DNA of 64,000 bases, taken from assembly GCA_951813535.1 (NCBI GenBank), contig OX638345.1:1253029-1317028 (forward strand). Direction: 5' to 3'. Shown piece after piece: positions 12,963 to 55,595 of the stretch (position 1 is the first letter of the stretch; the number at the start of each line of letters is the position of its first letter). Under the pieces are notes generated by a model. That model did no database searches and was not told the origin of the DNA. It saw only the letters and a list, made by a program, of their open reading frames with translations. A program made the translations under genes and the position numbers. Source of the stretch: an uncultured Dehalococcoidia bacterium (lineage in GTDB: Bacteria; Chloroflexota; Dehalococcoidia; Lucifugimonadales; UBA3495).

Positions 12963-13553
12963 CTAGTCTGCTCGGTCGTGTCCCAGAAGGGCGGCCACAA
13001 TTTCCGGCGCCACCGCGTCCACCCGCGACTCGATCGCCGCCGTGTCGAGAGCCGCCACCGGATGTTGCAGGTACACCGACCCTGGGTAGTCGGGCCGACC
13101 CAGCGACACAATATGCTGCTCGGCTGCTGAACGAAACGCCTTCGTGTGCACCACCACCGTCCGCACCCCCCGGTCTTCCAGTTCCACCGCATCGCGCAAA
13201 CTGCGCGCCACGCAACTCCCTCAATCCCCGACCGCGGTCACCACGAAGTCGCACTCTGCGAGTTCGTCAATGATTTCAGGCGCCGCGGGAGCCGAGAACA
13301 CCCACTTGGAACGCACCAGGGAGTCGGTCATCCCGTAACCGTCCGCCAGCCGCGAGCGGATCGCTTCCAGGATCACGTCGGCGTTGCCCTTGCGATTGTC
13401 CAGGAACCCGCCTTTGAGGCCCTCGAGGGTTTCCAGCGGAGCCGCCGGCCGGCGCTCTGGTTCTTCCTGTCGGTCCGTCGGATCCACCAATCCCAATGCC
13501 GCTATTCGGGCCGACAAGTCAGTATTGTCCATCATCTTTTCCATCCTGTGCAT
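12963..13553 (-). CDS. UGSC-family selenoprotein (in-frame UGA read as selenocysteine)
   Basis: A gene of 196 codons if the TGA at 13221-13223 is decoded as Sec111. The upstream part ends DFVVTAVGD; the next codons in the same frame are TGA-GGG-AGT-TGC, giving the UGSC motif. The frame then continues for more than 80 residues (RDAVELEDRGVRTVVVHTKAF, then GRPDYPGSVYLQHP) to a TAG. This fits the known UGSC (seleno)protein family, in which U or C begins the motif and a helix with DAVxLExRG follows. The reaction is unknown; the motif suggests redox chemistry. A hairpin fitting a bacterial SECIS follows the UGA. The first ATG is 13553; ATG 13544 and 13535 are also possible. It lies 9 bp after the neighbour at 13563 and is probably co-transcribed. 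No selA, selB or selD is in the window. Confidence 0.88.
13188..13223 (-). promoter_or_regulatory. Putative bacterial SECIS element
   Basis: On the coding (minus) strand the UGA at 13223-13221 is followed by 18 nt and then the loop AGUUU (13202-13198). The loop is closed by five G-C pairs (CGCGC 13207-13203 with GCGCG 13197-13193). Four further pairs (two Watson-Crick, two G-U) lie beyond a G-A mismatch. Bacterial SECIS elements sit just 3' of the UGA, with the apical loop about 16-37 nt away and a G in the first loop positions; both conditions are met. Confidence 0.65.
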
Positions 13554-13562
13554 CCATGCAAA

Positions 13563-14603
13563 TTAGGCTATCGGAGCCGACGTGATCCGCGAGCCCCAAC
13601 CCGGGATGTACACCGAGTGCCGGCCCGGGCCGCCGGCCACCATTATATGGATGTCCTCCGGTCGCCGCACCACCGGTACCATCGCCTCGTCGTCGCCGCG
13701 ATCAATCCAGCGCGGCCACAGGGTGTTGCGATGGGCGTGCCGGCCGTGGATGCCGCCCAGCTTCAGAACCGACAGGGGTTGCCGGGCCAATTCGTAAAGG
13801 TACGACCTCACGTCGTTCTTGCTCCAACCCGCGCTGGCGATAATGTCGGCGTGCTCCGGCCCCAGCACCAGCAGCACATCGCCCATGACGTGGATGTTGT
13901 TGCAGCCGGGGATGGCCATGGACATCGCGAAGGTGGTCAGCAGGTCTCGTGGGTTATCCGCGCCGTGGTTGTTCAGGTTGTGAGGCGCCTCCGCCGGATG
14001 CACCGTCACCACCGATTCGTTGGGTCGGTAACCCCGCTCCACATGGTAGGGTTGCCATGGATTTTCCGCCTCGTTCTCGGCGATGCAGTAGGTGTACTTG
14101 CCGGGATGGCCGAAGGTCGCGCGGTCCTCGTCGCCGGGCAGCGCGCCGCCCAGGTTGGTCAGCGCCAGTTTGACAGCCCGGCCTATGGTGGCGTTGGCCC
14201 GGTTCCCCTGACCGAAACAGTTCCCGCCGCTGTTCATGCCCAACTCTGCGGCTGCCGGTCCGTTCACCACCACGAGCGGCGTGGCGATGTGGGTCGAGCA
14301 TTGCACCGACGCCAGGTTGAACCGGGGCAGCAGCAGCGCCTCAATGGCCGCGATGACCACCGGGAAGTACTCCGGCAAACACCCCGCCATCACCGCGTTG
14401 GCCGCCAGCTTCTCGACGGTCGCCCGCCCCCCGCGCGGCGGCACCTCTCCGACCAACTCCAGCGCCGACCGCCCCGACGCCTCCACAAACTCCCGCACCC
14501 GCTCCGCCGTGGGCGGCACGACGGGCAGGCCGTCGGTCCAGCCGGCCTCGTGGGCTAGAGCGAGGGCTTCTCCGTAGTGGCCATCGTCAGCAAACGTCGT
14601 CAT
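13563..14603 (-). CDS. Conserved hypothetical protein beside the UGSC selenoprotein gene
   Basis: About 346 residues from ATG 14603 (two in-frame GTG codons lie just upstream). No named domain is recognised. The sequence is Gly/Asn-rich with likely turn or ligand motifs: GWTDGLPVVPPTAERV near the start, NSGGNCFGQGNRANATIGRA in the middle, and VAGGPGRHSVYIPGWG at the end. Cysteines and His are scattered, without a clear metal site. The end lies nine bases before the selenoprotein start and the beginning overlaps a retropepsin-like gene, so it is in the same transcript. The tight pairing suggests it acts with the UGSC protein, perhaps as the other half of one enzyme; that is inference. Confidence 0.85.
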   Translation of the reverse strand: MTTFADDGHYGEALALAHEAGWTDGLPVVPPTAERVREFVEASGRSALELVGEVPPRGGRATVEKLAANAVMAGCLPEYFPVVIAAIEALLLPRFNLASVQCSTHIATPLVVVNGPAAAELGMNSGGNCFGQGNRANATIGRAVKLALTNLGGALPGDEDRATFGHPGKYTYCIAENEAENPWQPYHVERGYRPNESVVTVHPAEAPHNLNNHGADNPRDLLTTFAMSMAIPGCNNIHVMGDVLLVLGPEHADIIASAGWSKNDVRSYLYELARQPLSVLKLGGIHGRHAHRNTLWPRWIDRGDDEAMVPVVRRPEDIHIMVAGGPGRHSVYIPGWGSRITSAPIA

Positions 14604-14964
14604 CACCACCCTGCATCAGCAGACCAACTTCAGGAACAAGTTGCTTGTTTATCGGATCAACAACAAGCAACAGAACCTCCAGGGTAGTCGCTCCCAATAA
14701 GTAAAGGTTCTCCGGGCCAAAGACGACCATCGCTTCACCGTCAATGCCATCAACCTCAAAGAAAGCCATTCCAGTTTGACGTTCTTCTACCTGTCCGTTG
14801 GCCAAGCGGAGCCTTCGCGTCCTGGTCGGTTCAATACCCAGACGACGCAACAGGCTGGACGGCATCACCGAAAATGTGGCGCCCGTATCCACAAGCGCGT
14901 CAACCGTCTCCCGGGCCGCAAAACTCGGGTTGCCCACCGTCAACTGTACGCTGAAAGTTCCCAT
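14587..14964 (-). CDS. Retropepsin-like aspartic protease (clan AA), copy A
   Basis: A 125-residue single-domain retropepsin-like protein. VDALVDTGATFSVMP holds the DTG active-site triad, with LGIEPTRTRRLRLANGQ and LLGATTLEVLLL as the later strands and loop. Members of this bacterial group act as homodimers, one Asp per subunit; their targets are unknown. It is clearly paralogous to the gene at 16709 (both start MGTFSV and share VDTGAT and LGIEP). Its 3' end overlaps the next gene by 17 bases. Confidence 0.85.
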   Translation of the reverse strand: MGTFSVQLTVGNPSFAARETVDALVDTGATFSVMPSSLLRRLGIEPTRTRRLRLANGQVEERQTGMAFFEVDGIDGEAMVVFGPENLYLLGATTLEVLLLVVDPINKQLVPEVGLLMQGGDDDVC

Positions 14965-16708: not shown

Positions 16709-17062
16709 TCACATGAGAAGGTCATCTTGCACGAGCAGGCGCTCATCCACCGGATCGATTACCATACCCAGGTCTTCCAAAGTTGTCGCGCCCATCAGGT
16801 ACTGACCTTCTGGTCCGAACGCTACTCGCGCCACCGCGTTGCGCCCTTGCACGGAAAACCGCGCCCACGCTGTTTGCAGTTCGACGCGGCGCCCGTCGGC
16901 AACACGAGCGAACCTGGTTTCCACGGGTTCGATGCCCAGTTCGTGTAATAAGCTAGCCGGCAGCATCGTGTTGGTGGCTCCCGTGTCTACCAGGGCTGAA
17001 ACGGTGGCGCCCGCTTCCGCGAAAAGGTTGCCCACCCATAGATCGACGCTGAAAGTTCCCAT
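16709..17062 (-). CDS. Retropepsin-like aspartic protease (clan AA), copy C
   Basis: A 117-residue retropepsin-like protein paralogous to copy A: MGTFSVDLWVGN, VSALVDTGATNTMLP with the catalytic DTG, LGIEP, and YLMGATTLEDLGM. ATG 17062 is chosen because it aligns with the start of copy A; the open frame upstream lies in the end of the enolase-superfamily gene region and is unrelated. It lies 11 bp upstream of the 103-residue gene and 44 bp downstream of the enolase-superfamily gene. Confidence 0.83.
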   Translation of the reverse strand: MGTFSVDLWVGNLFAEAGATVSALVDTGATNTMLPASLLHELGIEPVETRFARVADGRRVELQTAWARFSVQGRNAVARVAFGPEGQYLMGATTLEDLGMVIDPVDERLLVQDDLLM

Positions 17063-17106
17063 GCCAACTTGCCTGTCCCTGATGCCAATCGTGCCAGACA
17101 GCAGGT

Positions 17107-18210
17107 CTAATACACCTTGTACTCTTCCAGCACCGCCGCATCCAGGTGCAGGCCCATGCCGGGCTCCGTGGGCGCGATGATTTCGCCGTTGTCCCACTCC
17201 GGGAGCACGCTGTTGAGCTGGTAGTACACCGGGTCGCGCTCCTCCTCGAACACCTCGACGAACAGGCCGTGGGCGTGGGCCGGTAACAGTTGCACCGCCA
17301 GCTGCGGCTCTTCGTGGTGGGCCATCCGGATGCCGCGCATCTGCGCCGCGCCAGCCACCCGCCGCCATTCCGAGATGCCGCCGCAGATGGCCGCGTCGAT
17401 GTTCAGGATGTCCACGGCCTCGGTGTCCATGAGCCGCTGCCCGCCCCACGAGCTGCTCTCGCCCTGGCCGGCGGCCACCGGGATGCCGGTGCGCAGCCGC
17501 ACCTGGCGCATGTCGTTGTCCGCGTTCTGCCAGCGGCACGGCTCTTCAAGCCAGGCGAGCCCCATCTCCTTCGCCGGCCCGGCGAACTGCAGCGCCTCCT
17601 CAAGAGTCCAGGCCTGGTTCGAATCGCACACGATGATGAAGTCGTCGCCCAGCGTGTCCCGTATGGCCCTCACCCGGAGCAGGTCATCCGCGACTGCGAC
17701 GCCGCCTGTCTTCAGCTTGACGCCGCCGATGCCGCGCTCGCGCTGGTGCAGCAGGTCTTCCACCATGTACGCCGTGTCCCGTCCCTGCACGTAGTAGGCG
17801 AACCGCACCACCGGCGACCGGTCGGCGTAGCCGCCCAAAAGCGTTCGCACCGGAACGCCCAACGCCTTGCCGGTGATGTCCCATAGCGCCACGTCGATGG
17901 CCGCGATGGCGCGCATGGCGATCGCCTTGTTTCCGATGTGCGGCGTGAGCGCGAACATCTTCTGCCAGCACCGCTCGATGGCCATGGGATCCTCGCCCTT
18001 CACGGCCTCCGCCATTGGCCCTACGACCAGGTCCTTCAGCAACTCGTAGCCCGTCCGCTCGTCCCCCGAATAGATCTCGCTCACCAATCCCTCGTCGGTG
18101 TGAACCCGAACCACGATGGTGCACCGCGATTCGATCTGGTACACGCTGCCGCTGAACCGCGTGTTCAGTGGGATCCGAACGATGTCCGCCTCTACATTGG
18201 TGATACGCAT
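17107..18210 (-). CDS. Enolase-superfamily enzyme (mandelate racemase/muconate-lactonizing type)
   Basis: A 367-residue enolase-superfamily protein with an N-terminal capping domain and a (beta/alpha)7-beta barrel. The KxK pair is Lys165/Lys167 in GVKLKTG. Metal ligands are Asp196 (CDSNQAW), Glu222 or Glu223 (WLEEP) and Glu251 (GQGES). A His at 298-299 in AHHEEP is a likely second catalytic base. These fit a mandelate-racemase-like sugar-acid dehydratase or racemase; the substrate is unknown. Start ATG 18210 has GGAGGCGG ten bases upstream. A divergent MqnA-like gene begins 232 bp away. Confidence 0.9.
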   Translation of the reverse strand: MRITNVEADIVRIPLNTRFSGSVYQIESRCTIVVRVHTDEGLVSEIYSGDERTGYELLKDLVVGPMAEAVKGEDPMAIERCWQKMFALTPHIGNKAIAMRAIAAIDVALWDITGKALGVPVRTLLGGYADRSPVVRFAYYVQGRDTAYMVEDLLHQRERGIGGVKLKTGGVAVADDLLRVRAIRDTLGDDFIIVCDSNQAWTLEEALQFAGPAKEMGLAWLEEPCRWQNADNDMRQVRLRTGIPVAAGQGESSSWGGQRLMDTEAVDILNIDAAICGGISEWRRVAGAAQMRGIRMAHHEEPQLAVQLLPAHAHGLFVEVFEEERDPVYYQLNSVLPEWDNGEIIAPTEPGMGLHLDAAVLEEYKVY

Positions 18211-54668: not shown

Positions 54669-55595
54669 TCACCATTCACGGGAGCGAATGTAACGGTGGG
54701 CGGCAATGGCGGCGGTGGCGCCGTCGCCGGCCGAGGCGACCAATTGGGCCGCGGACTGCTGACGGATGTCGCCGGCGGCGAACAGTCCGGGTTGTGGTGT
54801 GTCCATGGCAAGACCCACCGGGATGTGGCCGGCATTATCGAGTGGGACCAGGTCGGAAACCGGGGACGAGTTGGGCTCCAGGCCCACGTACACGAAGAGG
54901 CCGCCGACCGGTTCGACGTTCTCGCCGTCGGCGCTGCGAACGCGCACGCCGGTGACGGTGTCTTCACCTACGACCTCTACCACCTCGGAGTTGTACCGAA
55001 CCTCGATTTTTGGATTGGCAGTGATGCGATCCTGGAGGACCTGCTGGGCGTCCAGGTCGTCGCCCCGGTGGAACAGGATGACGCGCTCGGTGTACTCCGT
55101 GAGAGTCAGCGCCTCGTCGGCCGCGGAGTCGCCGCCGCCGACCACGGCAACGGTCTGGCCCATGTACAGCGGGCCGTCGCAGGACGCGCAGTGGGAGACG
55201 CCCCGTCCAAAGAACTCTTCTTCGCCCGGGATGCCCAGGGTGCGCAGAGTCGAGCCGGCGGCCATGATGACTGCTTTGCCGAGGTAGGAACCCCCGCCCT
55301 CGCCGGCGACGCGGAGTAAATCGCCATCGGAGGAAACGCTGGCGACGGTGTCCATCAGGATTTCGACGCCGGCGTTCATCGCCTGCTCCTGGGTCGCAGG
55401 ACCGAGTTCGTAGCCGGCGATGCCCTGGGGAAAGCCGGGGAAATTCTCGATGCGCTCGAGGTTGATGATCTGGGCGCCGGCCATCATCTGCTCGACGACG
55501 GCGGTGCTCAGGCCCTGGCGAGCGGCGTAGATTCCGGCGGTCAGGCCGGCCATGCCGCCGCCGATGATGATGACGTCGAAGTTCTGGTCGGGCAC
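54669..55595 (-). CDS. trxB: Thioredoxin-disulfide reductase-family flavoprotein
   Basis: A 308-residue FAD/NAD(P)H oxidoreductase: IIIGGGMAGLTAGIYAARQG (FAD), the redox pair Cys136-Ala-Ser-Cys139 in SHCASCDGPLYMG, VAVVGGGDSAADEALTL (NAD(P)H), and a terminal LFAAGDIRQQSAAQLV. The GTG start at 55595 has GAGAGGT upstream. No thioredoxin gene is adjacent, so the partner may lie elsewhere. It is probably co-transcribed with the MBL gene, ten bases apart. Confidence 0.92.
   Translation of the reverse strand: MPDQNFDVIIIGGGMAGLTAGIYAARQGLSTAVVEQMMAGAQIINLERIENFPGFPQGIAGYELGPATQEQAMNAGVEILMDTVASVSSDGDLLRVAGEGGGSYLGKAVIMAAGSTLRTLGIPGEEEFFGRGVSHCASCDGPLYMGQTVAVVGGGDSAADEALTLTEYTERVILFHRGDDLDAQQVLQDRITANPKIEVRYNSEVVEVVGEDTVTGVRVRSADGENVEPVGGLFVYVGLEPNSSPVSDLVPLDNAGHIPVGLAMDTPQPGLFAAGDIRQQSAAQLVASAGDGATAAIAAHRYIRSREW

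Follow-up and report, generated by a model that had tools for sequence, protein, structure and literature searches.

A UGSC-family gene with an in-frame UGA predicted to be read as selenocysteine, and its paired upstream gene, in a Dehalococcoidia genome

The window (the whole 64,000-nucleotide stretch that was analysed) contains a gene which almost certainly encodes a selenoprotein of the UGSC family, its in-frame UGA being recoded as selenocysteine (Sec). Sequence comparison indicates that recoding is directed by a hairpin downstream of that codon and would use the organism's own SelA, SelB, SelD and tRNA-Sec. In this genome UGSC genes have a copy of the gene that lies directly upstream as their partner in 8/8 cases, and the two proteins presumably form one enzyme. 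The best overall explanation, which we hold to be rather better than an even bet, is that the UGSC selenoprotein acts together with its partner as a selenoenzyme pair which is fed by thioredoxin and resembles glycine reductase. The UGSC family has been known since the 2000s (PMC2398784), so the window gene itself is not new. What is new here is the set of eight UGA-bearing UGSC genes, every one of which has a paralogue of the gene at 13563-14609 next to it or fused to it. The features concerned are:

12963..13553, minus strand: predicted UGSC-family selenoprotein gene, 196 codons plus a TAG stop, Sec being residue 111 counted from the ATG at 13553.
13221..13223, minus strand: in-frame UGA, almost certainly decoded as Sec, on the reading of the frame and the conservation of the column in UGSC loci.
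13212..13214, minus strand: Cys114, putative resolving cysteine of the U-x-x-C motif, in a nearly invariant column of a 60-sequence alignment.
13193..13207, minus strand: predicted bacterial SECIS-type hairpin with a 5-bp stem, CGCGC/GCGCG, and loop AGUUU, nucleotides 17-31 counted from the U of UGA.
13563..14609, minus strand: partner gene, 348 aa, of an uncharacterised family, paired 1:1 with UGSC in the genome and with an invariant Cys77 in NAxMAGC.

The minus-strand frame from 13553 to 12966 holds 196 codons, and its sole interruption is the TGA at 13223-13221. From the ATG at 13553 there are 110 codons to the TGA and then 85 to the TAG at 12965-12963, the stop on which the span given in the initial annotation (12963-13553) ends. 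The start codon is uncertain, and could be the ATG at 13553, 13544, 13535 or 13532. Joined across the UGA the product reads ...ECDFVVTAVGDUGSCVARSLRDAVELEDRGV..., and the frame, the TGA and the GD-U-GSC context are exactly as the initial annotation described them. Its assignment to the UGSC family was also correct. In a Pfam scan the joined protein matched PF24696 (UGSC) at 2.8e-44, with 151.7 bits compared to a cut-off of 25, over profile positions 2-171 of 172. The match is unbroken across the UGA and the family is conserved at full length on both its sides. The score with NCBIfam NF041046 was 116 bits, slightly below the 125-bit cut-off, which suggests that the window copy is a somewhat divergent member of the family.

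Could the UGA be a true stop or a nonsense mutation, and the locus a pseudogene or two separate small ORFs? A gene caller run with table 11 does return two ORFs, of 110 aa and 82 aa, the fragmentation that had been foreseen from the letters alone, and the record of a Paracoccus ferrooxidans plasmid splits its UGSC gene at the UGA into two hypothetical proteins. However, all eight UGSC genes of this genome have exactly one in-frame TGA each, at the motif, and a single TGA at the same place in 8/8 paralogues means that the one in the window is not there by chance. It had been proposed that this column should contain U or C in homologues, and among 96 UGSC loci with the motif, from relatives and named genomes, it is TGA in 92 and Cys in 4, with no other in-frame TGA in 16,304 codons. 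Cys forms were seen in haloarchaea, Sphingomonas, Binatia, Roseovarius, Variovorax, Arthrobacter and Embleya. The conservation data, together with the intact family match on either side of the codon and the covariation of the hairpin after it, already refute the reading as a stop, and we give it next to no credence.

The genome is a single contig of 4.38 Mb, 99.8% complete, on which the window is located. The bacterial Sec-decoding trait is complete, as selA, selB, selC and selD, the genes by which the prediction of Sec decoding was to be judged, are all present on that contig: tRNA-Sec (66.4 bits, anticodon TCA), SelB (354.8 bits, full model covered), SelA (542 bits) and SelD (370 bits). SelD (L043:2762-3700, C1:1105770) is itself a selenoprotein, with one in-frame TGA in the motif HCAGU. 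That UGA is read as some other amino acid, eg Trp, through a variant code or a suppressor is the least probable reading of all, having nothing specific in its favour except that readthrough in one gene would look alike, whereas the full Sec machinery is on the same contig, haloarchaea, Sphingomonas and others have Cys at the homologous position, where Trp is never seen among the classified loci, and the recoding is confined to this codon in these genes, with a SECIS-type hairpin after it.

On comparative grounds the hairpin is a bacterial SECIS, and binding of the C-terminal domain of SelB to it is predicted. All registers within 48 nt from the UGA were searched, and the best five-pair helix is formed by nucleotides 17-21 with 27-31 (99% paired in 94 distinct sequences). 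With 40 distinct sequences the covariation score was 0.366, compared to 0.142 for shuffled data; none of 500 shuffles reached the observed value, which was also far above those of slid registers. Double changes in the stem in this set include C-G to G-C. The window stem is kept by a double change from CGUGC/GCACG to CGCGC/GCGCG, the effect on the protein being the change of Cys and His to Arg. The Ser codon in the loop is AGT in 84/84 cases, against 48/896 Ser codons elsewhere in the same domains, and AGT is not kept at this position in the four Cys-form genes examined. The region thus has the attributes of a bSECIS, ie a stem-loop within about 40 nt 3' of the UGA, compensatory changes and a conserved loop G. 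Single-sequence folding of the 53 nt after the UGA gave an energy which was not significant (z -0.42), only the comparative test being informative, and curated Rfam families gave no match anywhere in the window. The machinery and the covarying hairpin together agree with the earlier prediction that this organism decodes Sec. The accompanying remark that few Chloroflexota do so was mistaken, as tRNA-Sec was found in 231/301 sampled Chloroflexota genomes, and selenoproteins of Chloroflexi were counted as early as 2006 (PMC1794560).

Identity of the IF-2 encoded in the window is 56-63% with its counterparts in four named genomes of Dehalococcoidia or Chloroflexi and does not exceed 50% with those of the more distant genomes compared, a short archaeal fragment excepted, and these values support a probable position of the genome among SAR202-like Dehalococcoidia. 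UGSC genes were found in 35/35 genomes sampled from the same genus and family and in 47/60 relatives overall, with up to 13 copies per relative genome and one TGA in every match listed. Their distribution is patchy phylum-wide (14/151). In a tree the paralogues are interspersed among UGSC sequences from other genomes and phyla, implying that the copies are old or transferred and not recent duplications.

The partner gene lies directly upstream of the window UGSC gene, and a Pfam scan of its 348-aa product gave no match. The genome contains eight of each, every pair being adjacent or fused. In one case (L039) the UGSC and partner paralogues are fused in one gene, which supports a functional link between them; in another (L036) the two are apparently separated by an open frame of about 270 aa. 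When 80 partner loci from many phyla were inspected, UGSC was adjacent in most, and several of those without it were contig ends or Poribacteria with a shorter form. The shorter partner (about 270 aa matched), with no detectable UGSC neighbour, is seen in Poribacteria at L120, L122, L129, L140 and L148. At alphaproteobacterial loci L108, L111, L125, L136 and L142 the order is UGSC, partner and a second partner copy (three copies in L136), with TrxB directly upstream in most. In Blastococcus (L134:2490-3902) a TrxB-like gene is followed by UGSC-like sequence in two pieces and then by the partner. Within the window, a small aspartyl protease-like ORF at 14587-14964, with a PF13650 match, shares 23 bp with the start of the partner gene, and the C-terminal part of a second such ORF, at 16709-17539, is similar to it by eye.

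The AlphaFold model of the UGSC protein (pLDDT 93.4) is a Rossmann-like alpha/beta sandwich in which Sec comes directly after strand 103-109, at the N-terminus of helix 112-127; the model of the partner has a pLDDT of 94.4. The Foldseek matches found with the UGSC model, such as ribosome-processing proteins and lumazine synthase, had TM values of about 0.3-0.5 and were rejected as reflecting only the common Rossmann-like arrangement. Thioredoxin was not among the structural matches listed, which does not by itself disprove such a fold. Candidate folds for the partner (class I fumarase, chorismate mutase, encapsulin) were unconvincing, with Z no higher than 5.3 and TM about 0.27. PDB sequence searches with both proteins found nothing.

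Alignment of the UGSC profile with the Sec domain of GrdB/PrdB by hhalign gave a score of 45.3 (E 2.6e-6), with Sec placed on Sec, over about 60-95 columns. Scores for 200 column-shuffled profiles did not exceed 26.5, and that of the reversed profile was 17.5. The family profile was required, as the 60-sequence UGSC alignment was too weak when set against a single PrdB-like sequence. The match is evidence for a Sec domain in UGSC related to that of GrdB/PrdB, and not for membership of GrdB; the Pfam scan of the window protein returned UGSC only, with PF07355 (GRDB) absent. The similarity could instead reflect a shared Rossmann-like core and a convergent UxxC motif. The partner gave no profile match to GrdE-like proteins, and PF09338 (GrdE/PrdA pyruvoyl proprotein) was absent from it by Pfam. 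A GrdE-like pyruvoyl role for the partner gains no support from this comparison, and with no convincing fold match either, a pyruvoyl-type mechanism is not supported.

Thioredoxin genes occur beside some of the UGSC copies of relatives, which suggests a reductase. A TrxB-like gene lies within 1 kb of the partner in 5/80 genome loci (L108, L111, L125, L134 and L142), compared to about 0.1 by chance on our own estimate, which assumes 1-3 such genes per genome. On plasmids, thioredoxin reductase is encoded within 2 kb of the pair in Roseovarius, Variovorax and Arthrobacter, the last with trxA as well, and a TrxB-like flavoprotein gene lies within 2 kb of it on a Haloterrigena plasmid. In this genome trxB is next to none of the eight UGSC loci, and most partner loci in other genomes have no adjacent trxB. 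The window does contain a thioredoxin reductase-like gene (54681-55583, 3e-92), which at 40 kb from the UGSC pair is not linked to it. Recurrent neighbours of partner loci are TctC receptors (13/130 flanking ORFs), CoA-transferases III and TPP enzymes, and TRAP transporters also occur near the pair. As TctC genes abound in Betaproteobacteria, their presence in this context may be partly background. The eight UGSC loci of this genome have mixed neighbours (SDR, NHL-repeat, luciferase-like, acetyl esterase). On the Paracoccus ferrooxidans plasmid the UGSC gene (L202:7387-7956) is about 4.5 kb from selB, possibly a mobile Sec-plus-selenoprotein unit.

A mechanism for the pair can be proposed, and we would put its chances at about even. 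The UGSC subunit would be Rossmann-like rather than thioredoxin-like, with its selenolate at the N-terminus of a helix after the central strand, cf. the GrdB/PrdB Sec domain. The partner, with its invariant Cys, would bind or activate a substrate of the organic-acid type, which the UGSC selenolate would attack, leading to reduction or bond cleavage. Cys114 would then resolve the adduct by closing a selenenylsulfide, and the enzyme would be reset by thioredoxin, via thioredoxin reductase, in the way that glycine reductase receives its electrons (PMC3091704, PMC10298544). The numerous old paralogues in a genome would serve different substrates. More tentatively, and with the balance somewhat against us, UGSC and partner may constitute an unrecognised class of two-component, thioredoxin-fed selenoenzyme, in which a GrdB-like Sec domain is combined with an unrelated substrate-activating protein for the reductive cleavage of organic acids, in organisms beyond the anaerobes, and which has multiplied in SAR202-like Chloroflexota for many substrates.

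An older reading makes UGSC a general thiol/selenol oxidoreductase with an antioxidant role and a thioredoxin-like fold, and not a substrate-specific catabolic reductase. A thioredoxin-like oxidoreductase was first suggested in the 2008 ocean metagenome survey, which assumed the Trx-like fold (PMC2398784), and the UxxC motif and the adjacency of trxB/trxA in some lineages are consistent with it. However, the model is a Rossmann-like sandwich whose best matches are not thioredoxins, the 348-aa partner is obligate, and up to 13 divergent copies per genome, with transporter and CoA-transferase neighbours, are better accommodated by substrate specificity; we consider an antioxidant role unlikely. 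Less likely again is action of the pair on sulfur or selenium compounds, eg C-S bond cleavage. Genes annotated as phosphosulfolactate synthase are found near the pair in Natrinema and Arthrobacter, and dsrE, tusA and cysteine desulfurase genes in Paracoccus, but the loci are few and most contexts point to carboxylic-acid transport and CoA chemistry.

UGSC ranks with the most abundant selenoprotein families of ocean metagenomes, and its role is uncharacterised (PMC2398784, PMC13188914); a 2016 survey covering more than 5200 bacteria gives the numbers 26 and 33 for it (PMC5029168). What makes its function testable is an invariant partner, linkage with thioredoxin genes, a Sec domain resembling that of glycine reductase, and natural Cys versions. 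The Cys versions occur in culturable Roseovarius, Variovorax, Arthrobacter and haloarchaea, and their expression needs no Sec machinery. Stop-based annotation breaks UGSC genes into fragments. Enzyme families are reported to have expanded in SAR202-type bacteria, and the eight UGSC copies would add a selenium-dependent branch to that pattern; the SAR202 genome papers PMC6946804 and PMC10444878 do not mention selenium. The interest of the locus lies in the eight-fold expansion of UGSC, coupled with a concrete, testable proposal for a functionally uncharacterised family.

Compared to the UGSC family as previously described (PF24696/NF041046, and the ocean survey, PMC2398784), the window protein matches the profile at full length, has U where the family has it and carries the UxxC motif, but eight paralogues are present in this one genome and the window copy is divergent, below the NCBIfam cut-off. 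Fusion of UGSC with a conserved but unknown domain was recorded in the 2008 survey (PMC2398784), and the fused paralogue described above has that kind of architecture. A PrdB-like selenoprotein of the same genome (L153:1435-2634, C1:4347088; motif UPLC), close homologues of which, with the same TGA, are found across the genus, resembles UGSC in its in-frame TGA and, by sequence alignment, in a UxxC at a strand-helix junction; it is matched by PF07355, and differs in being 400 aa long and of another family. In family- and order-level relatives (L162, L163, L164, L165 and L189) there are full GrdB genes in which UGTS replaces UGTC; these adjoin GrdE-like (PF09338) genes and are of the glycine/betaine-type reductase, the second Cys having become Ser. 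With GrdB/PrdB of the glycine/betaine/sarcosine and D-proline reductases (PF07355), UGSC shows a partial similarity in the Sec domain and shares the UxxC motif and, at some loci, thioredoxin genes nearby. Unlike GrdB it is missing the N-terminal region (PF07355), profile comparison shows no relation between its partner and GrdE, no grdA, grdC or grdD was seen beside it, and it occurs also in haloarchaea and other presumably aerobic organisms.
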